Source of the DNA: Pseudomonas vanderleydeniana
GTDB taxonomy: Bacteria > Pseudomonadota > Gammaproteobacteria > Pseudomonadales > Pseudomonadaceae
Assembly: GCF_014268755.2 (NCBI RefSeq)
Contig: NZ_CP077093.1
Location: 3,274,001 to 3,338,000, forward strand
Direction: 5' to 3'
Length of the DNA: 64,000 nt
Under the pieces are notes generated by a model. The model was not told the origin of the DNA and did not search any database. It saw only the letters and a program-made list of their open reading frames with translations. Below, piece after piece: positions 40,117-61,902 of the stretch. The first letter of the stretch is position 1. The number at the start of each line of letters is the position of its first letter. Position numbers and translations under genes: made by a program.

Positions 40117-41181
40117 TCAGGGACGGTTTCCCTTGAGCATGTAGGCCGGGATCTGCTCCAGGGGAATCTCCCTCTGCACCGCGTCCAGTTTGCGAGCCTC
40201 CTTGGGCATGCCATAGACCACGCAGGAAGCTTCGTCCTGGCCGAGGGTATAGGCGCCGGCGTCGTACATTTCCCGCAACCCGCGCGCGCCGTCGTCACCC
40301 ATGCCGGTCATGATGATGCCGGTGGCATTGGCACCTGCAGCCCGGGCCACGGAGCGGAACAGCACATCGACCGAGGGTTTGTGCCGGGAGACGGGCGGCC
40401 CATCGACGATGTCCACCACGTACTGCGCGCCACTTCGCTTCAGTAGCATGTGGCGACCGCCGGGGGCGATGAGGGCGCGCCCGGGGATGACCCGGTCACC
40501 TTGCCGCGCCTCGCGCACTTCGATACGACACAGGCTGTCCAGGCGTGCGGCAAAGGCTGCGGTGAATTTTTCCGGCATGTGCTGGACGATCACGATGCCC
40601 GGGCAGACCTGGGGCAGGGCGGTGAGCACCTGTTCCAGGGCCTGGGTGCCGCCGGTGGAGGTGCCCAGGGCCACGATGCGTTCGGTGGTGCGGGTCATGG
40701 CGCTCGGCCCCGCGTCGGGCAGTATCGCGTCGGCAGTGAGCCTGGGTGCTACGGCGGGGGCGATGGCAATTGGCTTGAGGCGTGCCTGGGATGCGGCCTT
40801 GATCGCACTCACCAGCTCTGCGGTGGCCTCGACAAGGCATTGGCGCAGGTTGCCCTGGGGCTTGGTGACGATGGCTATCGCGCCGGCGGCAAGGGCTTCC
40901 ATGGTGGTCGCAGCGCCTTTCTCGGTCAGGGTCGAGCAGATCACCACGGGGGTCGGTCTTTCGGCCATCAGCTTTTTCAGGAAACTGATGCCGTCCATGC
41001 GCGGCATCTCCACATCCAGCACCAGCACGTCCGGCCAGTTGCGGTTCATGCGCTCTAGGGCGAACAGCGGATCGGCGGCGGCGCCAATCACTTCGATACC
41101 GCCATGGCCGGACAGGCTGCTGGTCAACACCTGCCGCACGACGGCGGAATCGTCGACGATCATCACCTTGATGTTTTTCAT
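40117..41181 (-). CDS. cheB: CheB methylesterase/response regulator, cluster 1
   Basis: 354 aa. REC domain with phospho-acceptor Asp56 ([13 protein letters not shown]) joined by a linker to the CheB methylesterase domain with its Ser-His-Asp triad ([21 protein letters not shown]). Demethylates/deamidates the cluster's chemoreceptors. Start at ATG 41181, which overlaps the cheD stop by four bases; a longer open frame in the other direction is the shadow of cheD. Last gene of the minus-strand cluster, and paralogue of the CheB at 58648. Confidence 0.93.
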
Positions 41182-41687
41182 GATGAGCTGGCCTCGTTGC
41201 GCCGGTTGGCAACGTGCTGAGGGTTGGGGTGACGCAGTGCAATGCTGCCGCTCCACACGTCGAAGATCAGGTTGCGGTAGCCTTCGCCACCCACATCCTG
41301 GGCATGGCAGGCAAGGCCGTGGGCGGCCAGCAGGGCCAGGCCGGCCTCGACGTTTCTTTGACCGATGTGCTGGCGATTGCGGCTTTCCAGCATGTTGCCG
41401 CCGCCGAACAGGCCAATCCGGTAATCCCTGGCGTGGGTACCGCTCATGCGGATTTCTCTCAGCAACTGATGCAGGGCGCCATCGGCGTAGCGACCGTCCG
41501 GCTTGTGGTCCGGGTGGCAGGAGGTGGGCAACAGGTAGTGGCACATGCCACCCAGGAGCGCCTCGCGGTGCCAGAGCACGATGGAGACGCAGGAACCCAG
41601 CAGTGTGCGCAGGCGCGTGTAGCGGTCGCTGAAATACAACTCGCCCGGCTGCAGGAACACCTCGATGACGCCCTTGGGCTTACGCAT
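41178..41687 (-). CDS. cheD: CheD chemoreceptor glutamine deamidase, cluster 1
   Basis: 169 aa. CheD active-site residues are visible: Cys in [13 protein letters not shown] and His in GGMCHYLLP, with the later FGGGNML and [15 protein letters not shown]. Deamidates receptor glutamines and can bind CheY- or CheC-type partners. Start at [10 protein letters not shown] (41687); overlaps cheR by eight bases and cheB by four, so the R-D-B adaptation module is translationally coupled. Confidence 0.92.
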
Positions 41688-42486
41688 GGGGCCTCCGGTA
41701 GACCGAAGGCCGCACGGATTCCAGCTCATCGGTGATGCCATGGAGGCTTTCCGAATGGCTGACCAGGAAGTAGCCCCCTGGACGCAGGCGTGCACGCAAG
41801 CGTTGCACCACCTGGCGCTTGGTGTCGGCGTCGAAGTAGATCATCACGTTGCGCAGAAAGATCACGTCGAACATTCCCACGTCCGGCAGCGTGCTGTTGA
41901 GGTTGATCTGGCGGAACTGCACGCGTTGCCTGAGGCTGGCGTCCAGCGTGAACAGGCCCTCGTTACGCCCGGTGCCCTGCAGGCAGAAGCGTTGGCGCAG
42001 GTCACCGGGAATGCCTTGCGCGGCATCCAGGGGGTAGAGACCGGCGCGGGCCTTGTCGAGGATACGGGTGCTGATGTCCGAGGCGAGGATTTCCCAAGGG
42101 CGGCCCTGGAGGGTGCTGGCCAGCAGCAGGGCGAGCGTATAGGGTTCTTCGCCGCTGGAGCAGGCCGCGCTCCAGATACGCAGTGGGCCACTGCCGCGTA
42201 GCTCGGTAACCAGCTTCTCGCGCAGGAACTCGAAATGTTTGGGCTCGCGGAAGAAGTAGGTCTCGTTGGTCGTGAGCAGGTCGATGGCCATCTGCATTTC
42301 GCCCTTGTCCTTCATCAGCAACTGGTAGTAGTCGCCATAGCTCCCCAAGCCAAAGTGACGCAGGCGTTTGCTCAGTCGGCCGGCGATCAACTGGCGCTTG
42401 GCTTCGGACATGGCAATGCCGGCAATCTCGTGGATCATTGCGCGAAACTGCTGGAGTTCCGAGTTGGAAAGGCTGAGTTCGGTCAT
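41680..42486 (-). CDS. cheR: CheR chemoreceptor methyltransferase, cluster 1
   Basis: 268 aa. N-terminal helical CheR domain (about 10-65), TTNETYFFREPKHFEFLREKL (SAM-domain entry), SAM-binding IWSAACSSGEEPYTLALLL and the conserved VIFLRNVMIYFDADTKRQVVQRLRARL. Methylates receptor glutamates. Positioned between cheW and cheD in the adaptation block. It has no C-terminal TPR or extra domain. Confidence 0.93.
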   Translation of the reverse strand: MTELSLSNSELQQFRAMIHEIAGIAMSEAKRQLIAGRLSKRLRHFGLGSYGDYYQLLMKDKGEMQMAIDLLTTNETYFFREPKHFEFLREKLVTELRGSGPLRIWSAACSSGEEPYTLALLLASTLQGRPWEILASDISTRILDKARAGLYPLDAAQGIPGDLRQRFCLQGTGRNEGLFTLDASLRQRVQFRQINLNSTLPDVGMFDVIFLRNVMIYFDADTKRQVVQRLRARLRPGGYFLVSHSESLHGITDELESVRPSVYRRPHA

Positions 42487-42499
42487 GGCGAGCTCCCGG

Positions 42500-43042: not shown

Positions 43043-43071
43043 GTTCAAGGCTCCTGTGCGTACCTGTGCAT

Positions 43072-43593
43072 TCAGATCAAGGGCTGTCGATAGGTATTGC
43101 GTTGACCAGCCAGCAGGGCGATCTGGTCGACACTCAGAACTTGCTCCATGCGCAGCAGGGTAAGGAAGCGCTCGTCCACTCGCGCGAGATCCTCGATGTA
43201 CTCCGGCGGGATGCGGCTGCCGAAGGCAGGAGCCTGGCGCAGGGCGCCTGGCTCGATCTCGGTCACGGCGTTGACTGAGTTCACCAGGGCCCCCATCAAC
43301 TGAACCTCGTCACTGTCCTGCAGTTCCACGATAACGATGCAGGTCCGCGGCCCCAGCTCGGTACCGCCCAGTCCGAAGCGCTCGGCCAGATCGATGATCG
43401 GGACCACGGCGCCACGCAGATTGATCACCCCGCGAACCAGAGGCGGCATCATCGGTACCGGAGTGATGGCGTGGAACTCGAGAATCTCCCGCACGTAGCG
43501 GGTAGCCACGCCGAACTGGTCGCGACCTACCCTGAAGGTCAGGTACTGGCGCTGTTGTTCTTCTGCGGCAGGCAGTGTGAGATCGATGCCCAT
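43072..43593 (-). CDS. cheW: CheW scaffold protein (second of two in cluster 1)
   Basis: 173 aa. QYLTFRVGRDQFGVATRYVREILEFHAITPVPMMPPLVRGVINLRGAVVPIIDLAERFG is a standard CheW core. It shares clear similarity with the neighbouring CheW and with the CheW at 56797. Four bases separate it from the receptor's stop codon, so the receptor and this CheW are expressed together. Confidence 0.92.
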   Translation of the reverse strand: MGIDLTLPAAEEQQRQYLTFRVGRDQFGVATRYVREILEFHAITPVPMMPPLVRGVINLRGAVVPIIDLAERFGLGGTELGPRTCIVIVELQDSDEVQLMGALVNSVNAVTEIEPGALRQAPAFGSRIPPEYIEDLARVDERFLTLLRMEQVLSVDQIALLAGQRNTYRQPLI

Positions 43594-43596
43594 GAG

Positions 43597-45552
43597 TCAG
43601 CTCCTGAAGCGGATGAATCCGCTGTCCTGCTCATCTGCATCCAGTGCCGCGGCGCCGCGATGCATCTGCGATGGCGTGTGCTGAAAGCGCAACACGCTGG
43701 CGGCACCACCGGGCGTGGCCAGTTGAAAGAAGCGCATCAGGTCCTGCAGGTTGTTCGATTGCACCGTCATCTCCTCCGACGTGGCGGCAAGCTCCTCCGA
43801 GGCGGCTGCGTTTTGCTGGGTGATATCGCTGAGCTGGGTCATGGCATCGCTGATCTGGTTGACGCCGGTGGTCTGCTCTTCCGAGGCGGCGGCAATCTCC
43901 TGCACCAGGTCCGAGGTCTTGCTGATCGAGGGGACCATCTGGTCCAACAGGGTGCCGGCGCGCTCGGCCAGGGAAACACTGCTCTTGGCCACCTCACTGA
44001 TTTCCTGCGCGGCCACTTGGCTACGTTCGGCCAGCTTGCGCACCTCGGCCGCGACCACCGCGAACCCCTTGCCGTGCTCGCCGGCACGGGCGGCTTCGAT
44101 AGCGGCATTGAGGGCCAGCAGGTTGGTCTGGTAGGCGATGTCGTCAACGATGCTGATCTTGTCGGCAATGGTCTTCATCGCGCAGACGGTGTCGCGTACG
44201 GCCTGGCCGCCTTCGCTGGCTTCACGGGCGGCCTTGCCGGCCATGCCGTCGGTGATCTTGGCATTTTCGGTGTTTTGGCCGATCGAGGCGGACATCTGCT
44301 CCATCGCGGCGCTGGTCTCCTCGACCGAGGCGGCCTGGCTGGATGCGGCCTGGCTGAGGCTTTGCGCGGTGGCGGAGATTTCCTCGGCAGCATTGCTGAG
44401 CATGCTGGTGGACTGGTGTACCTGGCCGATCACGTCGGCCAGTTTGCGTACCGTTGCGTTGAGCGATTGCTTCAGTTCATCAAGGTGGCCGTTGTAGTGG
44501 CCATTCATGGTGCAAGTGAGGTCGCCCACGGCCATCCCTTCAATCACGCCCATCGCTTCGCGCAGCGGGGTGATGATGGCTTCGAGCGTATCGTTGATGC
44601 CGTTGACGATGCGGCGGAAATCGCCCTCATGGCGGCTGGCATCGGCGCGAGTGTCAAGGTGCCCGTCGAGTGCGGCCTTGCTGAGCATCTGGGTGTCTTC
44701 GATCAGGGCCTGGATGTTGCGGCGCAGGGTCTCGATGTTGTCGTTGATGAAGGCCTTCTTGCCGGGGAACTGCTCCAGCGGTGCGGTCAGATCCCCCTCG
44801 CTGAAGGCCTTGATGCAGGCCATGGCCTTTTTCTTCACGCTGATATGGCCGGCGACCATCGCGTTGATGCCGCGGGCAATCTCGCCGTAGCTGCCCTGGA
44901 AGCGCGAGGCGTCGATGACGACGTCGATGTCCCCCCGGTCGTGTTCGTCGGACATGCGGCGCATTTCGCTCAGCAGGCTGGTCAGGTTGCGACGCAAGGT
45001 CTCGATGTTTTCGTTGATGAAGGCTTTCTTGCCGGGGAATGCCTCCAGGGGAGCGCTCAGGTCCCCTTCGGCGATCGAGAAGACGCAGGCCATGGCCTTT
45101 TTCTTGACATCGATGTGGCTCGTCACCAGCGCGTTGATGTCCTCTGCCATTTCACCGTAGAGGCCTGGGAACCGGGTGTTCAGGGTGGCGTCGATTTCCC
45201 CGCGCGCATGTTCGTCGGCAACGTGTCGCAGGTTCTGCGCAAGCCCGTCTATCTGGCCACCGAGCTGTTGCAGGCAGCCTCGCAGTGTGCCGGAGACGGC
45301 GGGCGTGGACGACTGGCGGCTGGTTTCGCCGCGTACCAACTGCTGGCCGAGCTCGAGCAGCGTATCGAGTTCACCACCGAGTTGGTCAGCCAGGCTGTGT
45401 TGCAGCAGCCAGCCCTGAACGGCGACGGCAATGGCGGCCACGACGGCAATGGGAATAACCATGCCGGCCGCCAGGCTCGATGCCAATACCAGGGCCAGCA
45501 GGGCGGAGATGGCGGTTGCGATCAACGCGAGGATGCGAACGGCTATGTTCAT
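43597..45552 (-). CDS. Poly-HAMP methyl-accepting chemoreceptor of cluster 1
   Basis: 651 aa. Two N-terminal membrane helices (about 7-55) with almost no periplasmic domain. Several HAMP-like repeats follow, including two near-identical 90-residue units (KKKAMAC...EGDL...APLE...FPGKKAFIN...IETLRRN). The C-terminal signalling domain has tip [43 protein letters not shown]. It ends DSGFIRFRS, a tether-like tail. The layout recalls Aer2-type receptors without the PAS-heme domain. It probably senses an internal or membrane-derived signal. Confidence 0.9.
44728..44890. repeat. Internal direct repeat in the poly-HAMP receptor gene (copy 1)
   Basis: About 163 bases, repeated exactly 270 bases further on (44998-45160). 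Encodes the repeated 90-residue HAMP-linker unit. Confidence 0.75.
44998..45160. repeat. Internal direct repeat in the poly-HAMP receptor gene (copy 2)
   Basis: Second copy of the unit at 44728-44890, diverged at scattered third positions; the offset of 270 bases keeps the reading frame. Confidence 0.75.
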
Positions 45553-47711
45553 TGCAGGTTACTCCATTGAGGAAGGACAACGCCTGGGGTGCCGGGACGA
45601 CCGGGCTGCGTGAATTGGGCGAGCAGGCCTGGAATATCGAGAATCAACGCGACCGCGCCGCTGCCAAGAATCGTGAAGCCGGAGAAGGCCGGGACTTGAC
45701 CGAACACCTTGCCCAGGGGCTTGATCACGGTCTGGAACTCGCCAAGCAACTGGTCCACCACCAGCCCGGCGCGGACCCCGGCGTAGCTGACCACCACGAC
45801 GTTCTCCCGGCGTGGGCGCTGGCTGGTTTCGTCGAAGTAGTTGCGCAGGCGGATGAAGGGCAATACGTCACCGCGCAGATCCAGCTGATCGAGGTCATCC
45901 AGGTCGCCACTGGGCAGTTCGATGCATTCCTCGACCATGTCCAGCGGGACCACGTAGCTGGAGCTGCCGACGCCGATCAGGAAACCGTCGATGATTGCCA
46001 GGGTCAGCGGCAGGCGAATACGTACGCGGGTGCCAGCACCCGATTGGCTGTCCAGTTCCACGCTGCCGCGCAGGGCGGTGATGTTGCGCTTGACCACGTC
46101 CATGCCGACACCGCGGCCGGAGAGGTTGCTGATCTGCTCGGCAGTGGAGAAGCCGGGCTCGAAGATCAGGTTGAAGATCTCCTTGTCCGTCAGTGGCTGG
46201 CCCTCGGTGACCAGGCCGCGCTGGATGGCCTTGGCGAGGATTTTCTCCGGGTTGAGGCCGCCACCATCGTCGCTCACTTCGATGACGATGCCTCCGGCTT
46301 CATGGTAGGCGTTCAGGCGCACCACGCCCTGCAGGGGCTTGCCACTGGCCCGGCGCAGCTCGGCCGACTCGATACCATGGTCCATGGCGTTGCGGACCAG
46401 ATGGGTCAGCGGGTCGCCGATCTTTTCCACCACGGTCTTGTCCAGCTCGGTGTCGCCACCGCTGATGTACAGGATGATGTCCTTGCCCAGCTCCTTGGAG
46501 ACATCGCGCACCACCCGCTGGAAGCGGTTGAAGGTGGTGCCGATCTGTACCATGCGCAGGGTCAGCGCCGAGTCGCGCACTTCTTCCACCAGGCGAGAGA
46601 GTGTCTCGGCGGACTCGCTCATGCTCACCAGGCCACTGCCCTGGGCGAGCATGCGGGTATTGGCACCGGCGATGATCAACTCGCCCACCAGATTGATCAG
46701 TTGATCCAGCTTGCTGGCATCGACGCGGATCAGGTTGGCTTCGCCGCTGGCGCGACTGGTCTCCCTGGCGACCTTGCCGACGGCCACACCGGCGCTCGAC
46801 TCGACGAGGCTCGAGGCGCTTTCGTCGGTGCCTGGCGGGGTCGCGGTGGCTGGCCGGGTGTCCAGTCGAAGCAGCTCGGCCTCGCTGAGGGTGCCGCAAC
46901 GCAACAGGCGCTGGCGCTGGGCGACACCTTCATCGGCCTGTTCGGCCAGCAGGTCGGCATAACGGGCCAGCGAATCGCCGGGGGCCAGTATGCGGATGCG
47001 CCCGTCCTCACGGACAAAGTCGAAGGCGCCTTCGATCACCGACCGTTCGGCCTCGCTGGCGAAGGCCACTTCCAGGCCCAGGTAGCAGGCTTCCGGATCA
47101 AGTGCGTCGAGTGCGGGCAGGTGATCGAGGACCGGTTCGATGTGCAGCAGGTGGCCGAAGGTGCCCAGGTAGCGAACGAAGGCCACCGGGTCCATGCCGT
47201 TGCGCAGGCTGTCGGTGCCAAAGCGCAAGGACAGGTGCCAATGCTGGCTGGACACTGCATCGGCAGAGATTTCTGCTGTTTCGGCAGGGGATGGCGGCGG
47301 GGTAGGGGCCGGCCCTGCCAAGTACTGGCTCAGGCGTGCCACCAACTCGGCTTCATGGACGCACAGGGCCTGGGGCAGCTGCGCCAGGTCGCGTCCCTCG
47401 GCGATATGGTCGACCAGGCCGGCCAGGTGGTCGCCCACCAGCAGCATCAGCGCACTGAGGTCGGCGCTGAATGGCAGCTCGCCGGCGCGGACGCGATCCA
47501 GCACGCTTTCGGCCACATGGGTGAAGGCAACAAGGGAGTCGAAGCCGAACAGCCCGGAAGAACCCTTGATGGTGTGGGCGGCACGGAAGATGGCGTTGAT
47601 GAGTTCGGGGTCATCCGGCGATTGCTCGATCTGCAGCAGGGCCTGCTCCATTTGCAGCAGCAGCTCCCGGCTTTCGGCAATGAAGGTGCCGAGCACATTG
47701 TCCAGGTTCAT
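45549..47711 (-). CDS. cheA: CheA histidine kinase, cluster 1
   Basis: 720 aa. P1/HPt with His46 ([15 protein letters not shown]), a P2-like domain (about 160-250: [24 protein letters not shown]), dimerisation helices, HATPase with N box [13 protein letters not shown] box DDGGGLN and [10 protein letters not shown], and the C-terminal CheW-like domain ([33 protein letters not shown]). Start at ATG 47711, overlapping the STAS stop (TGATG). Its partner response regulator is not encoded in this cluster. Confidence 0.94.
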
Positions 47712-48016
47712 CAACGTACCCCTTCGATCGGCAGCAGATCACGCATGCCGCTCAGTTGCAGGATCTCGGTCATGACCGGACTGACGCCCTCAAGACATAG
47801 CGTGACGTGCTGGCGACCGGCTTCGTTGCAGGCTGCCAGCAGCAGTTGCAGGCCTGCGCAGTCCACTTCGTCGATGGCACTGAGGTCCAGGTGCAGGTCG
47901 ACGGCGCCGCGAAGGGCATTGGCCAGCAACAGCTTGGTGTCGGCGGCGGTGTAGATGGTCAGCGCGCTGTCCAGTACCAGGTGGCGGCTGCAATCGGTGG
48001 CTTTCAGCGTATTCAT
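47711..48016 (-). CDS. STAS-domain protein lacking the phospho-serine, cluster 1
   Basis: 101 aa, a single STAS fold (LTIYTAADTKLLLANALRGAVDLHLDLSAIDEVDCAGLQLLLAACNEAG). In SpoIIAA the site is D-S-S-G-L, with the second Ser phosphorylated; here it reads D-C-A-G-L, so it cannot be regulated that way. First gene of the minus-strand cluster, one base overlapping cheA. It resembles the STAS genes found within F7-type che operons (for example XdsS of V. cholerae cluster III). Confidence 0.86.
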   Translation of the reverse strand: MNTLKATDCSRHLVLDSALTIYTAADTKLLLANALRGAVDLHLDLSAIDEVDCAGLQLLLAACNEAGRQHVTLCLEGVSPVMTEILQLSGMRDLLPIEGVR

Positions 48017-48385
48017 GGTGGACTCCGGATCAGGGGCGAATCAGCTCGCAAGCGGCTGTCAGCATCTGTGCCGGAAGGACAGGCTGGACCTCCGGCAGAC
48101 GCGTTCGAACGAAATCCTGGTGGCGCCCAGGGCCTGATGGTGGTTGACTGGTCACGGTCGCAGGCCTTCAGGACACAGGGCTCGCCAGGACATGGCGTTG
48201 CGCGTTGTGTACAGAATGGGCGTGCGGTGCTTGCGGTTCTATCGTCCTATCCCGGTGATGGCATAAGGACATCTTTCATCCGTGTAGGGATTTCCTGACG
48301 CGAGCGCGGACGTCCTGACGCTGGCGCTGGGCTCAAGGGGCGGGTCGTGCAGCAGGGACGGGGGCGGTGCGCGGGCGTGGGTGGC
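48017..48385. other. 369-base gap between the STAS and NarL-type genes
   Basis: No gene I can support. Both neighbours run in the same direction, so this segment should hold the promoter of che cluster 1. I saw no consensus FliA, sigma-54 or sigma-70 box that I trust. Confidence 0.35.
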
Positions 48386-49015
48386 CTATACCGCCAAGCC
48401 ATGGGTCATGGCGTACTTGACGATTTCGGCGTTGCTGGTGAACCCCATCTTCTCCATCAAACGGGCCTTGTGGGTGCTGACGGTCTTGTTACTGATCACC
48501 AACTGGTCGGCGATCTGGTTGACACTCAGGCCCTGGGCCAGCAGTCGGAGGATCTGGAACTCGCGATCGGTGAGCTGGGTGGCGGCATCGTCCGAGGGAC
48601 TGCTGCTGGCAAAGGCGAGTTGTTCGGCAATGCGCGGGTCCAGGTAGCGGCCGCCACTGGCGACGCGATGGATCGCCGCCAGGAGCGTTTCCGGGTTGTG
48701 GTCCTTGGTCAGGTAGCCGTTGGCGCCGGCCCGCAGGGCACGCTGGGCAATCTGCGCCTCGTTATGCATGCTCAGGACCAGGATCGGCAGTTTCGGATAG
48801 CGGGTATGGACGCGGTTGATCAGGTCTTCACCACTGAGCCCGGGCATGCTCATGTCGAGCAGAAGCAGATCGAATTCGCCGTCGCGCAGGCGCTCCAGAA
48901 CCTGGGCACCATTCTCGGCTTCGGCCGCCACCTGAAGACGGCTGTCGAACTCGATCAGCTGCTTGAGGCCGCCGCGCATGATGGCGTGGTCGTCGGCGAT
49001 GAAGATGCGGTTCAT
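48386..49015 (-). CDS. NarL/FixJ-type response regulator
   Basis: 209 aa. REC domain with phospho-acceptor Asp54 (LLLLDMSMPG) and conserved Lys in YLTKDHNPE. LuxR-type HTH at the C-terminus (LTDREFQILRLLAQGLSVNQIADQLVISNKTVSTHKARLMEKMGF). Overlaps the histidine kinase stop by four bases, so this is a classic kinase/regulator pair. Its place between two che clusters makes it the best candidate for controlling them transcriptionally. Confidence 0.92.
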   Translation of the reverse strand: MNRIFIADDHAIMRGGLKQLIEFDSRLQVAAEAENGAQVLERLRDGEFDLLLLDMSMPGLSGEDLINRVHTRYPKLPILVLSMHNEAQIAQRALRAGANGYLTKDHNPETLLAAIHRVASGGRYLDPRIAEQLAFASSSPSDDAATQLTDREFQILRLLAQGLSVNQIADQLVISNKTVSTHKARLMEKMGFTSNAEIVKYAMTHGLAV

Positions 49016-50832: not shown

Positions 50833-51022
50833 GGCTTCCCTGACCACTTGGTGATACGACCGAAGGAGTATGGATCATCTGCGAAATACGGGCGTTTTTT
50901 TGCTCGCGTTCGTGGCTCGAGGCGTACGACGCCGGCCGTTTGGTAACGCGGTTGAGGGTTCGTGAGTGGTCGATCAGGGCGTTTTCCGCTGATAAACCGG
51001 ACGGAAGGTATAAGGAGATGTC

Positions 51023-51049
51023 TAAAGTTGCGGCACGGAGCACAGATAA
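51023..51049 (+). promoter_or_regulatory. Candidate FliA (sigma-28) promoter of che cluster 2
   Basis: TAAAGTTG (51023-51030), 11 bases, then ACAGATAA (51042-51049). Against TAAAGTTT-N11-GCCGATAA it matches 13 of 16 positions with exact spacing. It lies 46 bases before the first gene. If real, this cluster is expressed with late flagellar genes. Confidence 0.55.
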
Positions 51050-51094
51050 GTCCTATGTTGTTTGTATTGGTAGCAACATTCAAGGATGGAACCT

Positions 51095-52309
51095 ATGACC
51101 CCACCCCAGTCCAGCCCTTATTCCCGTTCCGGTTACCCGCGTTTTCGTTGGTTCGCTTTCATCCCGGTGGTTCCCGCCGTTATCTGGATTCTTGTGCAAT
51201 CGACTTCCCCGGCCAACCTGGCGGCCTGCGCGGTGCTGGTACTGATCGGGTTCGCCGCCTGTGCCTGGAGCGCAGGCTCATGGCGTGGCTCGGTACTGCG
51301 TGCCGGTGCTCGCGGCCAGACCAGCCAGGCCGCCGTGGACGCTGCACAGGACGCCGTGGCGTCGCGGGCGAAGCTCGACGAGGTGTTGCTGGGGGCCATG
51401 CCGATCTGGGCCAAGCAGGTGGAAAGCTCGCGGCAGCAGACCGAAGAGGCGATTGTCAGCCTGGTCGAGCGTTTCAGTGGCATCGCCGCGCGCCTTCAGG
51501 AAACGGTACAGGCCTCGCAGGACGCCGCTGGCGAACTGGATGGCCAGGCCGCCGACGGCGCGCTCAAGGTCCTGGCGCGCAGCGACAGCGAGCTGAGCCA
51601 GGTCATCGACTCGCTCAAGGCCACGCAAACCAGCCGTGACCATATGCTCGGCCAGGTGCGCGGGCTTACGGCCTATACCGGCGAACTGCGCACCATGGCC
51701 GCCGACGTTGCGGCGATTGCCGCGCAAACCAACCTGCTGGCCCTCAATGCCGCCATCGAGGCGGCACGGGCCGGTGAAGCCGGGCGCGGCTTCGCCGTGG
51801 TGGCCGATGCAGTGCGCAACCTGTCGAGCAAGTCCAGCGAGACCGGCCAGCAGATGTCGGCCAAGGTCGACATCATCAACAATGCCATTACCCAGCTGGT
51901 GCAGGCCGCCTCCAGCAGCGCAGACGAGGACAGCCATTCGGTGGTCGCCTCCGAACAGAGCATCCAGTTGGTGCTCGAGCGTTTCCAGAACATCACCGGG
52001 CGCCTGGCCGACTCCGCCGACCTGCTCAAGCAGGAAAGCTACGGCATTCGCGACGAGATGACCGATGTGCTGGTCAACCTGCAGTTCCAGGACCGGGTCA
52101 GTCAGATCCTCAGCCATGTGCGCGACAACATCAACGCCTTGCATGATCACCTGTTGCAGGTCAGCCGCGCGCCCGACCAGGTGGCGGCGATGGACGTCAA
52201 GCAATGGCTGGCGCGCATGGAGTCCACCTATGCCACCGACGAGCAGCGGCGTATTCACCATGGCGCTGCCGCCGCCCAACAGAGTTCCCAGGACATCACC
52301 TTCTTTTAG
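51095..52309 (+). CDS. Receptor-like signalling protein at the head of che cluster 2
   Basis: 404 aa. Two closely spaced N-terminal membrane helices ([18 protein letters not shown] and [20 protein letters not shown]) with no ligand domain, a coiled-coil/HAMP-less linker and a receptor signalling tip [40 protein letters not shown]. It ends SSQDITFF. Start ATG 51095 with AAGGA eight bases upstream. The tip is of the [10 protein letters not shown] type, unlike the other cluster receptors, so it may dock on a different array or act as a CheY/CheA modulator. Confidence 0.87.
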
Positions 52310-52318
52310 GAGCCCATC

Positions 52319-52687
52319 ATGGCGAAGAGCGTATTAGTGGTCGACGATTCCAGCAGTGTGCGACAAGTGGTCGGAATTGCCCTGAAAGGCGCCGGTTACG
52401 ACGTGATCGAGGCGAGTGATGGCAAGGATGCGTTGAGCAAGCTCACCGGGCAGAAAGTGCACCTGATCATCAGTGACGTGAATATGCCGAACATGGACGG
52501 CATCACCTTCGTCAAGGAGGTCAAGAAACTGGCTAACTACAAGTTCACGCCTATCATCATGCTGACCACCGAATCGCAGGAGTCGAAGAAGGCGGAGGGT
52601 CAGGCTGCGGGGGCCAAGGCGTGGGTGGTCAAGCCATTCCAGCCGGCACAGATGCTGGCGGCGGTTTCCAAACTGATCCTGCCCTGA
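52319..52687 (+). CDS. cheY: CheY single-domain response regulator
   Basis: 122 aa. All REC landmarks: acidic pair Asp9/Asp10 (VVDDSSSVR), phospho-acceptor Asp53 (IISDVNMPNMDG), Thr (MLTTES) and Lys (VVKPFQP). It is the only CheY in the two clusters, lies ten bases after the receptor-like gene, and must serve CheA2 and possibly CheA1. The AYKF-type output face of flagellar CheY is not obvious, so the motor need not be its target. Confidence 0.92.
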   Translation: MAKSVLVVDDSSSVRQVVGIALKGAGYDVIEASDGKDALSKLTGQKVHLIISDVNMPNMDGITFVKEVKKLANYKFTPIIMLTTESQESKKAEGQAAGAKAWVVKPFQPAQMLAAVSKLILP

Positions 52688-52705
52688 TCGGCCCGGGAGG
52701 TTGCG

Positions 52706-52993
52706 ATGTCCGTTACCCGCGAAACCGTCGGCGACACGGCCCGCGTAGCCGTTGACGGCGAGCTGACGATCTACACCGTCGCCGAGCTGGCGAGCGCGTT
52801 GCTGGCGCAGCTTGGTGCGGTGCCGCGCCTGGAGCTGGACCTGTCGCAGGTCACCGAAATGGATGGCGCCGGGCTGCAGCTGCTCGCCGTCATCGAGCGT
52901 GAAACCGGCCTGGCTGGCATGGCCTTGAGCCTGACTGGCAAGAGCCAGACGGTCGCGCAAACGCTTGAACTCTGTCGAAGTACGGCCCTGTAA
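52706..52993 (+). CDS. STAS-domain protein lacking the phospho-serine, cluster 2
   Basis: 95 aa, single STAS domain (GELTIYTVAELASALLAQLGAVPRLELDLSQVTEMDGAGLQLLAVIERETG). The D-S-S-G-L site is D-G-A-G-L, so the phosphorylated serine is absent as in the cluster 1 protein. Between cheY and cheA with short spacers. The same order (CheY, STAS, CheA) is known from V. cholerae cluster III. Probably a scaffold or partner for CheA/CheW rather than an anti-sigma antagonist. Confidence 0.86.
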   Translation: MSVTRETVGDTARVAVDGELTIYTVAELASALLAQLGAVPRLELDLSQVTEMDGAGLQLLAVIERETGLAGMALSLTGKSQTVAQTLELCRSTAL

Positions 52994-53033
52994 CCGGGGC
53001 CGTGACCGTTAGTGACCGACAAGGAACGTCCAG

Positions 53034-55073
53034 TTGAGTATCAATCTCGATCAGGCATTACAGACCTTCATCGTCGAGGCACACGAACTGTTGCAGGCCA
53101 TGGAGCAATCCCTGCTGCAGCTGGAAAGCGAGCCCGGCGACCAGGATGCCATCGGCGCGATTTTCCGCGCCGCGCACACCATCAAGGGCTCCGCCGGGCT
53201 GTTCGGCCTGGCGCCTATCGTCAGTTTCACGCATATCGTGGAGGACGTGCTCGACCGTATCCGTGATGACAGTGTGGCCGTGGATGCGGCCCTGATCGCG
53301 GTGCTGCTCAAGTGTGGCGACCATATGCTCGAGCTGATCGAGGTCGTCGCCAACCGTGGCGAGGCACTCGGGCCGGCTGCGCTGGAGCGCGAAGCGGCAT
53401 TGCGGGCAGCACTCGGTGCCTATCAGGCGCCCGCCGGGAAGGGCGAAAGCGTCGAGATTGCCGTTGCCGAGGCGGATACGCACGGTGAAGTGCTCTGGCA
53501 CATCTCCCTGCGCTTCGGTGTGGACGTGTTCCGCAATGGCATGGACCCGTTGTCGTTCCTGCGCTACCTCGAGACCCTGGGGCAACTGGTCGAGGTGCAG
53601 ACAGTGACCGAGGACATCCCGACCCTGGAAAGCTGGGACCCGGAGAGCTGCTACCTGGGGTTCGAAATCGACCTGCGCTCCTCGGCCAGCCACGCCACCC
53701 TCAACGAGGTCTTCGACTTCGTGCGTGACGAGTGCGAAGTGCGGATCAGTGCCGTCGAGCAAGCCCATGACGACGCCGCTGTTCCGAGCACCGGGCTGGT
53801 CATGCTGCCGGAGCAGCAGGCCACGCCCGCTGCGCCCGCGCGGTTGCCGGCAACCAGCGAAGCGAAAGCCCGCGATGGCAACTATGTCCGGGTCAATGCC
53901 GACAAGCTCGACGAGTTGATCAGCCTGGTCGGCGAGCTGGTGATCGCCAGCGCCGGTGCGAACCTGCTGGCCCGCTCCTGCGATAACGACTCGCTGCAGG
54001 AGGCCAACTCGACGGTGTCGGGGTTGGTGGAGGAAATCCTCGATGGCGCGCTGCACCTGCGCATGATCCCCATCGGCGACACCTTCAACCGCTTCCGGCG
54101 CGTGGTCCGCGACGTCAGCCAGGAACTGGGCAAGGACATCGACCTGATCATCAACGGGGCGGAAACCGAGCTGGACAAGACGGTCGTGGAGAAGATCGGC
54201 GATCCGCTCATGCACCTGCTGCGCAACGCCATGGACCACGGGATCGAAAGCGCCGACGCCCGGCGTGCGGCCGGCAAGCCGGGCAAGGGGCACCTGAGCC
54301 TCAACGCCTATCACGACTCGGGAAGCATCGTCATCGAGATTGCCGACGACGGCGCCGGTCTCAACCGTGAACGGATTCTGGCCAAGGCCCAGGAGCGCGG
54401 GCTGGTCGCCAGCGGAGCGGTGCTCACCGACCAGGAGATCTACAACCTGATCTTCGAGGCTGGCTTCTCCACCGCCGAAGCGGTGACCAACCTGTCCGGG
54501 CGTGGCGTTGGCATGGACGTGGTCAAGCGCAACATCACCCTGTTGCGCGGCACCGTCGACCTGGACAGCCGTCCCGGCCAGGGCACCGTGGTGCGTATTC
54601 GCCTGCCGTTGACCCTGGCGATCATCAACGGTTTCCTGGTGGGCATCGACCACGCCACCTACGTGATCCCGCTGGACATGGTTCAGGAGTGTATCGAGCT
54701 GGATGAACAGCAGCGCCAGTCCAGCCGCGACCGCGGCTACCTGGGGCTGCGGGGCGAGGTGTTGCCGCTGGTGGACCTGCGCGATCACTTCAACCACGAG
54801 GGCCCAGCCGCCAGACGCCAGAACGTGGTGGTGGTGCGCTACGCCGAGCACAAGGCCGGGCTGGTGGTGGATGAGCTGCTCGGTGAGTTCCAGATCGTGA
54901 TCAAGCCCCTGGGCAAGCTCTTCGGCGCGCTGCGCGGTATCAGTGGTTCGACCATCCTGGGCAGCGGCGCGGTGGCGCTGATCCTGGATATACCGGCACT
55001 GCTCAACCAAATCGTACAACGGGAAGCCCGAACGGCCCAGGCACCCCAGTTGCCACCTGTCGTCGGTCGCTGA
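53034..55073 (+). CDS. cheA: CheA histidine kinase, cluster 2
   Basis: 679 aa, starting at a TTG (53034) with AAGGA eight bases upstream. P1/HPt with His48 ([15 protein letters not shown]), P2-like domain (about 160-245), dimerisation domain, HATPase ([37 protein letters not shown]) and the CheW-like regulatory domain ([30 protein letters not shown]). Architecture and sequence parallel cluster 1 CheA closely; the present gene lacks some 40 residues of its interdomain linkers. Confidence 0.94.
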
Positions 55074-55102
55074 CGTCTTTGCAATTCCATGGAGGTTCCC
55101 CG

Positions 55103-56761
55103 ATGAAATGGTTCTACGATCTCAAGATTTCCATCAAGCTGATCAGCTCGTTCCTGGTGGTGCTGGCGCTGACGGCGGCCATGGGCGGCTTCGCGGTCGT
55201 CCAGCTCGGCAGTGTCAACCAGGCGGCGCAAGACATCCGGGGCAACTGGATGCCGTCAATGCGCGCAGCGGCCGGCATGCGCTTTTTTGCCGCCAACTAT
55301 CGCCTGAAGGAGAATCGTCACGTCGCCACCGAGGTCGCCGAGGAAAAGGCCCAGGCCGAACGCGAGGCCACCGAGTCGCGCCAGCAATTCGAGACACGGC
55401 TGGGCACCTACGAGAAGCTGCTGTCGAACGACGAGGATCGTCAGCTCCTGGAGAGTGTCAAGCGTGCCTGGAGCGCCTACCTGGCGGATAGCCAGAAACT
55501 GCTCGAGCTGTCGCGGGAGGCGCAGGAGGCGCAGGCTCGTCTGCTGCTGCGCGGTGAATCCAGGGCGCGTTTCGATGAACTGACCGACCGTCTGCAGAAA
55601 ATGATCGAACTCAACGACGCCGGCGCGACCTCGGCAGGCAACCGGGGCTCGGAACTGTACGAGAGCTCGCGCCTTTCGATCGTCGTCGCCCTGATCGTTG
55701 CGCTGGTGGTCGGCCTGGGCCTGGCCCTGTTCATCGCCCGGATCATCTCGCGCCCCTTGCGCCATGCTGCGGCGGCCGCCGAGCAGTTGGCCGATGGCAA
55801 CCTCGGCACCCACATCGAGGCGGGCGCGAAGGACGAGACCGGCATGGTGCTCAACGCCATGCGCAACATGGTCGGCAAGCTGGCGCATATCATCGGCGAG
55901 GTCCGCAACGCCGCCGACAACCTGGCCAGTGCCTCGGAGCAGGTCAGCGCCACCGCGCAGTCGATGAGCCAGGCCACCAGCGAACAGGCGGCCAGCGTCG
56001 AGGAAACCAGTGCCTCGGTGGAGCAGATGAGCGCCAGCATCAACCAGAACACCGAGAACGCCAAGGTCACCGATGGCATGGCCAGCAAGGCCGCCAAGGA
56101 AGCCGGCGAGGGGGGCGAATCGGTGCAGCAGACCGTGGTGGCGATGAAGAAGATCGCCCAGCGCATCAGCATCATCGATGACATCGCCTACCAGACCAAC
56201 CTGCTGGCCCTCAACGCGGCCATCGAGGCTGCGCGGGCCGGCGAACATGGCAAGGGCTTCGCGGTGGTGGCCGCTGAAGTGCGCAAGCTGGCCGAGCGCA
56301 GCCAGGTGGCTGCCCAGGAAATCGGCGAGTTGTCCTCCAGCAGCGTGGACATGGCCGAAAAAGCCGGCAAGTTGCTCGATGAAATGGTGCCGTCGATCAC
56401 CAAGACCTCCGACCTGGTGCAGGAGATCAGCGCCGCGTCCGAGGAGCAGTCCGCCGGCGTCTCGCAGATCAACATGGCGATGACCCAGCTCAACCAGGTC
56501 ACCCAGCAGAACGCCTCGAGCAGCGAGGAACTGGCCGCCACCGCGGAAGAGATGAGCAGCCAGGCCGAGCAGTTGCAGCTGGCCATGAGCTTCTTCGTGC
56601 TCGATGCCACTCCCCGGGCCGCCCCTGCGCGCAGTGTGGAGGGCACCGGCGCCACCAAACCGGACCGCCAGGCTCCACGCCCGGCGGCGCAGGCCCCGCG
56701 CAGGGCGCTCGCCCAGGAAGCGGCGGGTGCATTGGATGAATCGGAATTCACCCGTTTCTGA
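55103..56761 (+). CDS. Transmembrane chemoreceptor of che cluster 2 (4HB-type)
   Basis: 552 aa. TM1 (about 10-30), periplasmic four-helix-bundle domain (about 31-187), TM2 ([22 protein letters not shown]), HAMP, and the signalling domain with the tip [43 protein letters not shown] shared with the cluster 1 poly-HAMP receptor. It ends ESEFTRF, a pentapeptide-like tail for CheR/CheD/CheB. Start ATG 55103 has GGAGG seven bases upstream. Periplasmic ligand unknown. Confidence 0.92.
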
Positions 56762-56796
56762 TCGCAGGATCGATACGGGCCTAAAGGGAGAACGAC

Positions 56797-57336
56797 ATGG
56801 GCGCAGTCATGACGACCCGGCATAGTGCGGTCGCGACAAGTGAGGACGGGCAGTACCTGACCTTCATACTCGGCGGCGAGATGTTTGCCCTCGGTATCCT
56901 GGGGATCAAGGAAATCATCGAGTACGGCAGCCTGACCGTGGTGCCGATGATGCCCGCCTTCGTGCGTGGCGTGATCAACCTGCGTGGCGCCGTCGTGCCG
57001 GTGGTTGACCTGTCGGCGCGCTTTGGTCGGGCGACCTCGACCATTACCCGGCGCTCCTGCGTCATCATCATCGAGGCCAGGAGCGAGGAGGGCGAGAGCC
57101 AGGATATCGGGCTGCTGGTGGACACCGTCTCGGCCGTGCAGGACATCCCCGCCGACCAGATCGAGCCGCCGCCCAGCTTCGGCGCCCGGATTCGCGCCGA
57201 TTTCATCAGCGGCATGGCCAAGATCGACGGCAAGTTCGTGATTGTGCTGGCGGTGGACAAGGTCTTGTCCATCGACGAGATGTCCAGCCTCGCCGAGGTT
57301 GTCCAGGCGCCGGGGCTCGACCTCGATTCGCGTTAA
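56797..57336 (+). CDS. cheW: CheW scaffold protein, cluster 2
   Basis: 179 aa. YLTFILGGEMFALGILGIKEIIEYGSLTVVPMMPAFVRGVINLRGAVVPVVDLSARFG is the CheW core with the conserved NLRG and D/R motifs. It couples CheA to the cluster's receptors. Single copy here against two in cluster 1. Followed after nine bases by cheR. Confidence 0.93.
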   Translation: MGAVMTTRHSAVATSEDGQYLTFILGGEMFALGILGIKEIIEYGSLTVVPMMPAFVRGVINLRGAVVPVVDLSARFGRATSTITRRSCVIIIEARSEEGESQDIGLLVDTVSAVQDIPADQIEPPPSFGARIRADFISGMAKIDGKFVIVLAVDKVLSIDEMSSLAEVVQAPGLDLDSR

Positions 57337-57345
57337 GGGCCGATC

Positions 57346-58155
57346 ATGTCGGAAGTTGCCTCCCTCGATGATCGCGAGTTCGACCAGTTCCAGGCATGGT
57401 TGTACCGCGCGGCCGGCATCAATCTGTCGCAGGGCAAGAAGGCCCTGGTGGCCGGGCGGCTGTTCAAGCGTCTCAAGCATTATGAGCTGGAGAGCTACGG
57501 GGAGTATTTCAGGCTGATCATGAGCGATCAGCACAAGAGTGAGCTGCAGGTCGCGCTCGACCTGCTGACGACCAATGAAACCTACTTTTTTCGTGAGCCC
57601 AAGCACTTCGACTTCCTGCGGCAACAGGTGCTGCCCAAGGCTCCGCCAGGCCGGCTGTTTCGCGTGTGGAGCGCTGCCAGCTCCTCTGGCGAAGAACCCT
57701 ACAGCCTGGCCATGACCCTGGCCGAAGGCCTGGCGACCACGCCTTGGGAAGTGGTCGGCTCGGACATCAGCACCCAGGTGCTGGCCAGGGCGCGCAGTGG
57801 GCATTACCCCATGGAGCGCGCCGGCACCTTGCCCATGCCGATGTTGACCAAATACTGCCTGAAGGGCATCGGCCGCCAGGACGGTACCTTCCTGATCGAC
57901 AAGGCACTGCGCAACCGGGTCAATTTCGTCCAGGTCAACCTCAACGAGAACCTGCCCGACCTGGGTGAGTTCGAGGTGATTTTCCTGCGCAACGTCATGA
58001 TCTATTTCGACCAGAAGACCAAGCGCCAAGTGGTGGCACGCCTGTTGCCGCGACTCAAGAGCGGTGGTTATTTCATCATCAGCCACTCGGAAAGCCTGCA
58101 CGGCGTGAATGACACGCTCAAGCTGGTGGCCCCGTCGATCTACCGAAAACCATGA
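57346..58155 (+). CDS. cheR: CheR chemoreceptor methyltransferase, cluster 2
   Basis: 269 aa. LLTTNETYFFREPKHFDFLRQQVL, SAM motif VWSAASSSGEEPYSLAMTLAE and VIFLRNVMIYFDQKTKRQVVARLLPRL are nearly identical to cluster 1 CheR. Methylates the receptors of the cluster. Its stop overlaps the cheD start by four bases. Confidence 0.93.
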   Translation: MSEVASLDDREFDQFQAWLYRAAGINLSQGKKALVAGRLFKRLKHYELESYGEYFRLIMSDQHKSELQVALDLLTTNETYFFREPKHFDFLRQQVLPKAPPGRLFRVWSAASSSGEEPYSLAMTLAEGLATTPWEVVGSDISTQVLARARSGHYPMERAGTLPMPMLTKYCLKGIGRQDGTFLIDKALRNRVNFVQVNLNENLPDLGEFEVIFLRNVMIYFDQKTKRQVVARLLPRLKSGGYFIISHSESLHGVNDTLKLVAPSIYRKP

Positions 58156-58655
58156 AGAAGCCTACAGGTGTGAGTGAAGTGGTCTTGGCGCCCGGGCAGG
58201 TGAGTTTCGCGGCGCGACCGACGCGCCTGCGCACGCTGCTCGGCTCGTGCGTGGCGTTCACGTTCTGGCACCCGCAACGACGGATCGGCGGCATGTGCCA
58301 TTTCATGTTGCCGGCCCGCTCGCGCAGGGACCTTGCGCTGGACGGCAGGTATGCCGACGAGGCGGTCGAACTGCTGCTGGGGCATGCCCGCGCCCACGGC
58401 ACGACGCCGCAGGACTACCAGGTCAAGCTGTTCGGTGGTGGCGAGATGTTCCCCGAACAGCGGCGTAGCTTGCCCGCGCAGGACGTGGCCAGCCTGAACA
58501 TCCGTGCCGCGCTGGAGCTGGCCGAGCATCATCGCTTGCACCTGGCTGCCCAGGACATGGGCAGTACCGGCTACCGTACGATTCTATTCGACCTGTGGAA
58601 CGGCAACGTCTGGGTCCGGCACCAACCAATGGGAACACTCGATAGACATGCCTAA
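58152..58655 (+). CDS. cheD: CheD chemoreceptor glutamine deamidase, cluster 2
   Basis: 167 aa. Active-site Cys in [13 protein letters not shown] and His in [10 protein letters not shown] are both present, as is [10 protein letters not shown]. Overlaps cheR by four and cheB by eight bases; the same overlaps occur in cluster 1 in the opposite order (eight, then four). Clear paralogue of the cluster 1 CheD. Confidence 0.93.
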
Positions 58656-59730
58656 CAAGAAAATCAATGTGTTGCTGGTCGATGACTCCGCCGTGGTGCG
58701 TCAGGTGCTGCTGTCGATCCTCAGTGATACGCCGGACATCCACGTCATGGGCGCCGCCTCCGACCCGATCTTCGCCATGGACAAGCTGGCCCGCGAATGG
58801 CCGGATGTGATCGTGCTGGACGTGGAAATGCCGCGCATGGACGGCATCACCTTCCTGCGCAAGATCATGAGCGAGCGGCCGACGCCGGTGGTGATCTGTT
58901 CCTCCCTGACCCAGAAAGGCGCGGAAACCTCCATGCAGGCGCTGTCGGCCGGTGCCGTGGAGATCATCACCAAGCCGACCACCGGCTTGAAGAACTTTCT
59001 GATCGACTCGGCGGCCGAGCTGGTCGCGGCGATTCGCGCGGCGGCGAAGGCCAATCTTGGCAACCTGGGCCGGCGCAGTGCGCCTGCGACGCCGGCCCCG
59101 GTTCCCGCCAGCAAGTTCAGCGCGGACGTGATCCTGCCTGCCGCCACCGGCCACGCGATGGCCCAGACCACCGAGCGCATCGTCGCCATCGGCACGTCCA
59201 CCGGCGGCACCCAGGCGCTGGAAACGGTGCTGACCGCGCTGCCGAGGGTGTGCCCGGGCATGGTGGTGGTCCAGCACATGCCGGAGAAGTTCACCGCGTC
59301 CTTTGCCGAGCGTCTGAACAGCCTGTGCCAGATCGAAGTCCGCGAAGCGCGCAACAATGACCGCATCCTGCCCGGCCTGGCGCTGATCGCTCCTGGCGGC
59401 AAACACCTGATGGTGACCCGCAGCGGGGCCTTCTACCACGCCCAGGTCATCGACGGACCACTGGTCAACCGCCATCGCCCGTCGGTGGACGTGCTGTTTC
59501 GCTCGGTGGCCAAGTTCGCCGGCAAGAACGCCACCGGCATCATCATGACCGGCATGGGCGACGACGGCGCACGAGGTCTCAAGGAAATGCTCGACGCCGG
59601 TGCCACGACGGTGGCCCAGGATGAAGCCAGTTGCGTGGTGTTCGGGATGCCGAAGGAAGCCATCAAGCTCAATGCCGCGCAACGGATCATGGCACTGCAG
59701 GACATTCACCAGGCGATCCTGCACAAGTGA
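58648..59730 (+). CDS. cheB: CheB methylesterase/response regulator, cluster 2
   Basis: 360 aa. REC domain with phospho-acceptor Asp58 ([13 protein letters not shown]), linker, and methylesterase domain with GTSTGG, QHMPEKF and [12 protein letters not shown] supplying Ser, His and Asp. Start ATG 58648; an upstream open frame from 58504 belongs to cheD sequence. Last gene of cluster 2. The kinase at 59760 is convergent with it. Confidence 0.93.
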
Positions 59731-61670: not shown

Positions 61671-61902
61671 GGGTGACTCCGGCGTCGAGGTCTCTGGCCA
61701 TCATCATAGCTGGCCAGGCGCCATGGCGCAGCCTTGTGTGCGTCGCACGTTCAAGGCAGCGTCAGTCCGGCTGACAGTGGCCGCCCGGTTTTTCCCTTTC
61801 AATGGGCAAGCGTTTCCGGGGGGCGGAGTCATCAGCGGTGAACAAACTGGCCATGTGCCGCTCTTAAGCTCATGCGTCTTTAATACGGTAACTGGAGTGA
61901 TC

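Follow-up and report, generated by a model that had tools for sequence, protein, structure and literature searches.

A 64,000-nucleotide stretch of the Pseudomonas vanderleydeniana genome (hereafter the window; bases 3274001–3338000 of a single-contig genome of 7,026,924 bases) carries two intact chemosensory clusters back to back, cluster 1 on the minus strand (40117–48016) and cluster 2 on the plus strand (51086–59730). Both clusters are of the F8 class, and among 114 distinct F8-type clusters cluster 1 is alone in having no cheY in its locus. The reading that we favor, and that we hold at a little better than even, is that two separate F8 clusters were joined, that the kinase of cluster 1 (CheA1) uses the response regulator of cluster 2 (CheY2), and that MCP2a, the receptor encoded just before cheY2, dephosphorylates CheY2-P.

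Cluster 1 has the order STAS-CheA-polyHAMP receptor-CheW-CheW-CheR-CheD-CheB, with no CheY; taken together with the histidine kinase (HK) and NarL-type regulator upstream, it reads HK-NarL-STAS-CheA-receptor-CheW-CheW-CheR-CheD-CheB, all on the minus strand. Cluster 2 has the order receptor-CheY-STAS-CheA-receptor-CheW-CheR-CheD-CheB, all on the plus strand. Every named gene of both clusters is open and scores above its Pfam family cut-off, with the true starts of the CheB and CheD genes, as placed by homology, lying inside the longest open reading frames (ORFs). The initial annotation had thus described correctly the gene content, the order, the opposite orientation, the two full CheA/W/R/D/B plus STAS sets, and the lack of a CheY in cluster 1. 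Neither set is frameshifted, and ratios of nonsynonymous to synonymous substitution (dN/dS) are 0.08–0.34 for the ten remaining genes of cluster 1, kinase and regulator included, and 0.02–0.25 for cluster 2. The features are as follows, where L008 and L010 are loci of P. fuscovaginae and P. otitidis, respectively, and types A and B are the two F8 lineages discussed below.

40117..41181, minus: cheB1 (REC and methylesterase domains), type-B F8; Pfam PF01339 and PF00072; start by homology; dN/dS 0.089 against L010
41178..41687, minus: cheD1; Pfam PF03975
41680..42486, minus: cheR1; Pfam PF01739
42500..43048, minus: cheW1a, first codons overlapping the scar of deletion 2; Pfam PF01584
43000..43026, minus: scar of deletion 2; L010 14682–16389 (receptor between the two cheW genes) lacks a counterpart here (blastn)
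43072..43593, minus: cheW1b; Pfam PF01584
43597..45552, minus: MCP1, 34H polyHAMP receptor with tail GFIRFRS; Pfam HAMP_N3, HAMP_2, MCPsignal; arms 64/102 versus 71/109 in Tar
45549..47711, minus: cheA1 (Hpt with HTIKG, dimerisation, HATPase, and CheW domains; Pfam); type-B branch of the tree
47711..48016, minus: STAS1, in CheS-like position; Pfam STAS_2
48017..48093, minus: remnant of the 3' end of the lost cheY (14 or more final codons, PAQMLTAACELIRP and the stop) and STAS1 leader; 48/60 bases identical to L008
48094..48140, minus: scar of deletion 1; L008 8161–9621 lacks a counterpart here (comparison with L008)
48386..49015, minus: NarL/LuxR-type response regulator; Pfam REC and GerE
49012..50847, minus: PAS-PAS-PAS HisKA_3 histidine kinase; Pfam
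50882..50991, no strand: junction of type-B and type-A homology (blastn)
51086..52309, plus: MCP2a, an MCP hairpin behind a hydrophobic N-terminus, with FQDRVSQ (D336, Q340) and tail DITFF; proposed receptor-phosphatase
52319..52687, plus: cheY2, proposed output of both clusters; Pfam; 80% to the lost CheY
52706..52993, plus: STAS2; Pfam
53034..55073, plus: cheA2, type-A F8; Pfam and tree
55079..56761, plus: MCP2b, 34H receptor (4HB_MCP sensor, HAMP) with tail EFTRF; Pfam; arms 64/102
56797..57336, plus: cheW2; Pfam
57346..58155, plus: cheR2; Pfam
58152..58655, plus: cheD2; Pfam
58648..59730, plus: cheB2, at whose stop codon the type-A homology ends; Pfam and blastn

Class and separate ancestry of the two clusters

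Chemosensory classes differ in the heptad number of their receptors, with 34H receptors in F8, 36H in F7, and 44H in F9 systems (PMC9321776), and the F8 cluster (cluster II) of P. syringae pv. tomato DC3000 is described as holding that strain's sole 34H receptor, which ends in a C-terminal pentapeptide (PMC11253619). The hairpin arms of MCP1 and MCP2b measure 64/102 residues versus 71/109 in Escherichia coli Tar, each arm being seven residues (one heptad) shorter, so both receptors are 34H and not the 36H of F7; the heptad outcome was the same against what we take to be the sequence of Tsr. Of 164 receptor rows more than 40% identical to MCP1 or MCP2b, a tally that counts both joined loci and their pieces, both arms come out at 64/102 in 96; a further 28 and 18 have a single arm that could be measured, at the same length, and the remaining 22 are unmeasurable. 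Pentapeptide-like tails are present in both window receptors, as EFTRF at the C-terminus of MCP2b and as GFIRF followed by RS in MCP1. In a CheA tree built from 69 of 124 rows, CheA1 and CheA2 fall with the CheA of P. viridiflava (locus L077) and are separated from that of E. coli and from those of two loci of the genus with F7 gene order (L103 and L109, whose CheAs are 42–45% identical to CheA2), with SH-aLRT support of 99–100; the same grouping appears in trees of CheB and of CheR (50 rows each) and in a concatenated tree of 49 rows. The F8 anchor in these trees is synteny with L077, where CheA is 75% and CheY 93% identical to cluster 2, rather than a library of class models, and P. viridiflava is a species of the P. 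syringae group. Given the 34H arms and the CheA, CheB, and CheR trees, the F7-type label attached to the locus at first falls.

The two F8 clusters did not arise by local duplication. Each belongs to an old lineage of its own, cluster 2 to one that we call A and cluster 1 to one that we call B, and rows from other bacteria branch with each. Nitrotoga (L067) joins A and Methylophilaceae (L028) joins B in the CheA tree and again in the concatenated tree; Aquabacterium (L057) and Pseudoduganella (L039) join B in the CheA tree, and the concatenated tree leaves them unplaced. By blastn, type-B homology to L008 extends to 50881 (50905 against L010), and homology to L010 starts at 40116, one base past the cheB1 stop; type-A homology, to locus L110, spans 50992–59730, ending with the final base of cheB2. 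Local inverted duplication of a single cluster followed by divergence, one of two origins initially suggested, would account for the shared gene families, similar order, adjacency, and opposite orientation, and yet it is hardly credible: rows from other classes of bacteria branch between the two clusters, the two modules have their matches in separate lineages of other species, and forcing the window clusters to be sisters costs 1232 log-likelihood units (approximately unbiased test, p-AU 1.4e-54, 33 rows), which rules it out. The other suggested origin, capture of two related clusters, fits the data, and we propose that F8 clusters of separate ancestry (type B at 40–50.9 kb, type A at 51–59.7 kb) would have been brought together here.

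The kinase/NarL pair does sit between the clusters, as noted from the start, but it is no neutral spacer. An HK-NarL pair occurs within 12 kb of 28/39 other distinct Pseudomonas type-B clusters and near 3/22 type-A clusters, each of those three beside a B cluster; since the pair accompanies type-B clusters and both of its genes are on the minus strand, it belongs with cluster 1. It stays with type-B clusters whether upstream or flipped downstream (G070, G141, G340, G267, and G173).

Juxtaposition of F8 clusters is recurrent, having arisen several times over. Across 398 genomes of the genus, a CheD match is present in 114 and at least two in 20, with CheD also marking F7 clusters (G260) and draft contigs possibly hiding pairs. 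Five of the 20 (G000, G008, G113, G122, and G305) have a CheD pair within 20 kb, where random placement of the 26 CheD pairs predicts 0.16 (P of five or more, 7e-7). These five pairs are not independent; the CheA tree indicates at least three origins, namely the window (A+B, otitidis subclade), G122/G305/L026 (A+B, libanensis subclade), and G008/G113/L012 (two type-B clusters), and P for three or more independent pairs is 6e-4. A divergent A/B pair is also present in G004, with the CheD genes 35 kb apart. The comparable tandem pairs, in P. libanensis (L026), P. fluorescens PfR 37 (L050), P. composti LY1 (L012), G008, G113, and G305, likewise place two F8 clusters close together, but they differ from the window in running head to tail and in having either a type-B partner of another subclade (A+B) or two type-B clusters (B+B'). 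The four pairs seen whole (G008, G113, G122, and G305) are head to tail and keep CheY in both clusters; in L012 and L026 the first cluster is visible only in part. The double locus is not unique, since tandem F8 pairs occur in G008, G113, G122, G305, L012, and L026. The initial annotation knew of no described doubled F7 locus, and we found no title or abstract opening among open-licence papers that describes paired F8 clusters.

Loss of CheY from cluster 1 and its candidate replacement

Close relatives of cluster 1 such as L011 have the order HK-NarL-receptor-CheY-STAS-CheA-polyHAMP receptor-CheW-receptor-CheW-CheR-CheD-CheB. Against L008, window positions 44301–48093 and 48141–50881 align around 1461 absent bases (L008 8161–9621), which in L008 comprise most of cheY and all of a receptor gene apart from its first 23 bases; what survives of cheY, ahead of STAS1, is a remnant of at least its 14 final codons. 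A 1.46-kb deletion, which also removed the adjoining receptor gene, thus accounts for the missing CheY of cluster 1. A further 1.7 kb, with the receptor gene that L010 has between its cheW genes, is missing from cluster 1; the comparison at that site rests on L010, since the L008 contig ends before it, and both deletions are seen in one genome of the species. Cluster 1 retains the core of an array, with the polyHAMP receptor, CheA1, two CheW, CheR1/CheD1/CheB1, and STAS1. The losses, of CheY and the preceding receptor in one deletion and of a second receptor in another, would have followed the union of the clusters.

This configuration is exceptional. Counting as F8-type any row with 1.5 kb or more of upstream sequence whose CheA shares at least 48% identity with either window CheA, we have 117 rows, and cluster 1 is the only one for which a CheY match of 90 residues is missing within 4.5 kb. 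Once loci with identical CheA are merged (L021/L122, L023/L123, and L029/L118), 112/114 distinct clusters have a CheY (at least 90 residues, 45% identity) within 4.5 kb upstream of cheA, the exceptions being cluster 1 and L027, where a weak 41% CheY match is within range but a 68% CheY lies 5.6 kb away.

A genome-wide search with the L008 CheY as query did not find the lost CheY relocated elsewhere. It returned CheY2 at 80% identity (207 bits), the CheY of a third cluster at 68% (169 bits), and 92 other matches of at most 71 bits; the REC domain of CheB1 matched at 44% over part of its length. Because CheY2 is the closest CheY remaining in the genome, its sharing is our best guess, and CheA1 most likely uses CheY2, judging from sequence. 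CheY2 and type-B CheY differ at seven positions (each type at least 80% uniform), all of them mild, and D12, D13, D57, T87, and K109 (E. coli numbering) are identical in both types. CheA1 keeps its HTIKG, and its window-specific versus L008-specific changes (P1, 3/2; P2, 6/4; linkers, 6/4; P3P4, 7/6; P5, 4/5) give no clear excess of the former in any domain, small as these counts are. We propose that CheA1 would now phosphorylate CheY2, two arrays thereby sharing one messenger, and that CheY2-P would be dephosphorylated by MCP2a through a CheZ-like motif in its C-terminal half, which ends in a conserved tail. The pair lost from cluster 1 would then be a CheY and its phosphatase, which could go together only if the neighbor supplied both.

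Several points weigh against CheY2 sharing. Phosphotransfer from CheA1 to CheY2 is something that we infer, and CheY2 shows no shift towards type B. In P. syringae, the F8 CheA failed to bind its own CheY in a two-hybrid assay and the F8 cheA and cheY mutants differed in phenotype (PMC11253619), which means that CheY may not be the simple output of F8 systems. The deletions may, moreover, be recent and cluster 1 decaying.

Two alternatives to CheY2 as the output of cluster 1 strike us as comparably improbable. One is that cluster 1 signals through the upstream NarL-type regulator, or through another such as WspR, instead of a CheY. The HK-NarL pair's association with type-B clusters (and with A clusters solely beside a B), the 92% identity of NarL to its L008 counterpart (dN/dS 0.076), and the account of P. 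syringae F8 CheA binding WspR and not its CheY (PMC11253619) are in keeping with such an output. However, the adjacent gene already provides NarL with a kinase of its own, CheA1 retains the region between Hpt and the dimerisation domain that is P2-like by position, and a takeover would have to postdate the deletion; type-B clusters with NarL carry CheY too, so NarL was no substitute for it, and we rejected the idea of a NarL replacement that evolved with the loss. The other alternative is that cluster 1 is losing function after its two deletions, its genes being open because the loss is recent. The deletions took two receptors and the only CheY, a loss seen in no other F8 cluster examined; a Mutator-family transposase gene lies 2 kb away, and window-specific changes in CheA1 slightly exceed those of L008 in four of five regions. 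Against this, all ten remaining genes are open with dN/dS of 0.08–0.34 and the CheA1 differences are small, and we discarded the stronger version in which cluster 1 is already a relic, given no frameshift, low dN/dS, and no clear lineage-specific acceleration on small counts.

The STAS proteins were considered separately. STAS1 and STAS2 both carry D-x-A-G-L, and Ala occupies what we take to be the SpoIIAA phospho-Ser position in 103 of 111 STAS rows (of these 111 rows, 108 are distinct), which speaks against a role as phosphorylated anti-anti-sigma factors.

A receptor family with a CheZ-like motif

MCP2a belongs to a family of 115 rows (112 distinct) that includes the receptor deleted from cluster 1 along with cheY. 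Its hydrophobic N-terminus (windows above 1.6 at residues 19–66) precedes an MCP hairpin, and across the family LQFQDRVSQ follows 120–122 residues past the hairpin tip (113 rows measured). The C-terminus reads I/V-TFF in 107/112 distinct members and V/I-E/D-LF in 5 (110 and 5 of the 115 rows). An alignment of 54 members shows no variation at Q333, Q335, D336, Q340, or the final F407. In E. coli CheZ the sequence is AQDFQDLTGQ, containing the catalytic residues D143 and Q147, and a CheZ profile aligns D336 and Q340 there. Like MCP2a, CheZ of E. coli and of Pseudomonas F6 systems has DxxxQ within FQDxxxQ, followed after a linker by a conserved C-terminal peptide whose final residue is Phe; CheZ differs in being a free protein, and MCP2a has the hydrophobic N-terminus and MCP hairpin in front and a TFF tail. 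MCP2a is most simply read as a fusion of a receptor with a CheZ-like phosphatase that would act on the neighboring CheY.

Of the 115 family rows, the CheZ profile (31 rows, one gene present twice, strict CheZ motif in 22) picked up 106 at E<0.1 and 42 at E<0.001. The same two thresholds admitted 5 and 1 of 169 other receptors and, when the 115 sequences were reversed, 2 and 0 of them; among distinct sequences the figures are 103/112 and 40, versus 5 and 1 of 166. Restricted to the piece past the hairpin tip (13 control receptors gave none), 78/109 distinct family members but 0/155 controls reach E<0.001, and 106/109 versus 42/155 reach E<0.1. Weak CheZ scores alone mean little, since so many control pieces attain them. 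The FQDxxxQ motif is present past the tip in 108/109 family members versus 0/155 other receptors. In an HHalign comparison of the post-tip pieces with CheZ, the family gave a probability of 70% (E 4e-5) and controls 1.5% (E 0.034), the cut having been made in both sets after a weak whole-length result. Searched in reverse over 274 Gammaproteobacteria, the post-tip MCP2a profile (A2) found matches in 82 and reached 5/29 over-cut-off CheZ genes (G454, G461, G473, G474, and G475; E 8e-5 to 7e-4); three ORFs of approximately 400–440 residues that the Pfam CheZ model matches below its cut-off (two in G473 and one in G431; E 3e-6 to 4e-4) are strong matches to A2. A cheY follows within 500 bases in 112/115 rows (directly in 109/112 distinct), at a median gap of 11. 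Across 31 loci (L170–L200, two of them from the window genome), a motif-bearing ORF is present in 29, of which 19 have an MCP tip by a strict pattern and 24 have a CheY match directly downstream. The McpA-like receptors of the F7-order loci L103 and L109 end in EIDLF, and that of L103 carries FQDLSSQ.

Other comparisons count against a CheZ-like identity. Whole-length HHalign of MCP2a against CheZ gave 1.4% (P 0.016; controls, P 0.69 and 0.83). The reverse profile missed 24/29 over-cut-off cheZ genes and, in the window genome at E up to 1, found MCP2a and its third-cluster counterpart but not the genome's own CheZ. Pfam PF04344 scores MCP2a at 19.2 of the required 30.7 bits (E 0.0012) and the L110 copy at 18.1 bits, and gave no CheZ hit for the L008 copy; the ITFF tail differs from the LLSSLGF of CheZ; and the hits from a PDB search with an MCP2a profile were MCP chains and, more weakly, other helical proteins, with no CheZ among them. 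That FQDxxxQ is a structural feature of the coiled coil and not a phosphatase site is the alternative to be weighed. The weak whole-protein scores, the tendency of coiled coils to give spurious profile similarity (seen in the control pieces at E<0.1), and the chance presence of the bare motif, ahead of the tip, in 5/166 distinct control receptors all lend it some weight. We nevertheless judge it unlikely, because past the tip neither the motif nor scores of E<0.001 occur in any control, D and Q are invariant, the distance from the hairpin tip is constant, and the gene stands directly before cheY. Our broader proposal, which we regard as somewhat more probable than not, is that the McpA-like or first receptors in F7 and F8 clusters combine an MCP hairpin with a CheZ-like C-terminal half that would dephosphorylate the CheY encoded by the next gene. 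Such fusions would supply the CheZ that these systems lack, and here one such receptor and one CheY would serve two arrays, the neighboring cluster having lost its own pair.

Genome setting and comparison with known systems

The genome has 19 CheW-domain matches and three CheD genes. The third CheD-bearing cluster, near 525–531 kb and approximately 2.8 Mb from the window clusters (L004, genome 515001–535000, at about 8.6–17.0 kb), is of a more distant F8-like type (CheA approximately 50%) also present in G070 and G141; its receptors include one of the 4HB type and, in first position, a CheZ-like one with the C-terminus DDVTFF, and blastp found no STAS gene in the cluster. A cheY-cheZ-cheA cluster (L005) is F6-like by what we take to be the usual gene order, and two further CheA clusters (L006 and L007) are presumably Wsp-like and Pil-Chp-like. 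The nearest named relatives of CheA1 and of the genome's CheZ are from Pseudomonas. NCBIfam gave no match over cut-off for six proteins tried, for two of the six among the matches listed.

The left flank of cluster 1 looks like a mosaic of mobile DNA. The Mutator-family transposase gene near cheB1 occupies 36873–38069, a DDE transposase and a TraG_N protein are encoded at 516–1946 and 15632–17368, and G+C content is 55–58% at 30–40 kb versus 63–65% in the clusters. A 4HB receptor gene (33761–35386, minus strand) stands 5 kb to the left of cluster 1, amid citrate-transporter and aconitase genes. Directly past cluster 2 (59760–63672) are genes for a hybrid kinase (PAS, REC) and an EAL protein, in opposite orientations.

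The DC3000 F8 cluster is of the same class but single-copy, unlike the window; the available portions of that account assign the strain's 24H receptors to F6 and make no mention of a CheZ-like receptor (PMC11253619). A che1 cluster of P. syringae has been described as of unknown function (PMC5088630). P. fluorescens F113 and P. brassicacearum likewise possess two paralogous systems, Che2 and Che3, besides Che1, but in F113 these lie at separate loci (PsF113_2284-2292 and 3554-3563), each functional and independent (PMC4498747). The P. brassicacearum loci in our set, L046 and L060, are type A. Other multi-cluster pseudomonads (PMC4498747, PMC4912153) and class turnover of chemosensory systems (PMC9239204) have also been described.

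The F7 systems of P. aeruginosa (Che2) and Vibrio cholerae (cluster III) have, at stage 2, a receptor and CheY before CheA, as does cluster 2, and share with the window a McpA-like receptor, its conserved C-terminus, and the lack of a CheZ in the cluster (PMC7184735); they differ in their 36H Aer2 receptors. McpA-like receptors are described as having a highly conserved C-terminus, of important yet unclear role, and no assignable heptad class (PMC7184735), and elsewhere as 24H outliers (PMC7534058). No title or abstract opening that we found among open-licence papers reports a CheZ-like site in them. CheS is a STAS protein that binds CheA (PMC12654446); in Sinorhizobium meliloti a single STAS domain is encoded beside cheY/cheA, an arrangement matched by STAS1 and STAS2, allowing for the lost cheY of cluster 1.

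In genomes with stage 1 or 2 F7 systems, as described in 2020, cheZ occurs only in F6 systems (PMC7184735). If true, a CheZ-like site in McpA-like receptors would answer both the absence of an F7 cheZ and the role of the conserved C-terminus, and a protein counted as a receptor would be part of the off-switch of F7 and F8 systems. Overproduced Shewanella McpA is reported to raise swimming in a manner requiring the F6 kinase and not the F7 kinase (PMC9855816), an effect that a CheY phosphatase might have. The paired locus would offer a natural example in which a single CheY is left for two arrays, and the repeated juxtaposition of F8 clusters suggests that neighbors may share parts.

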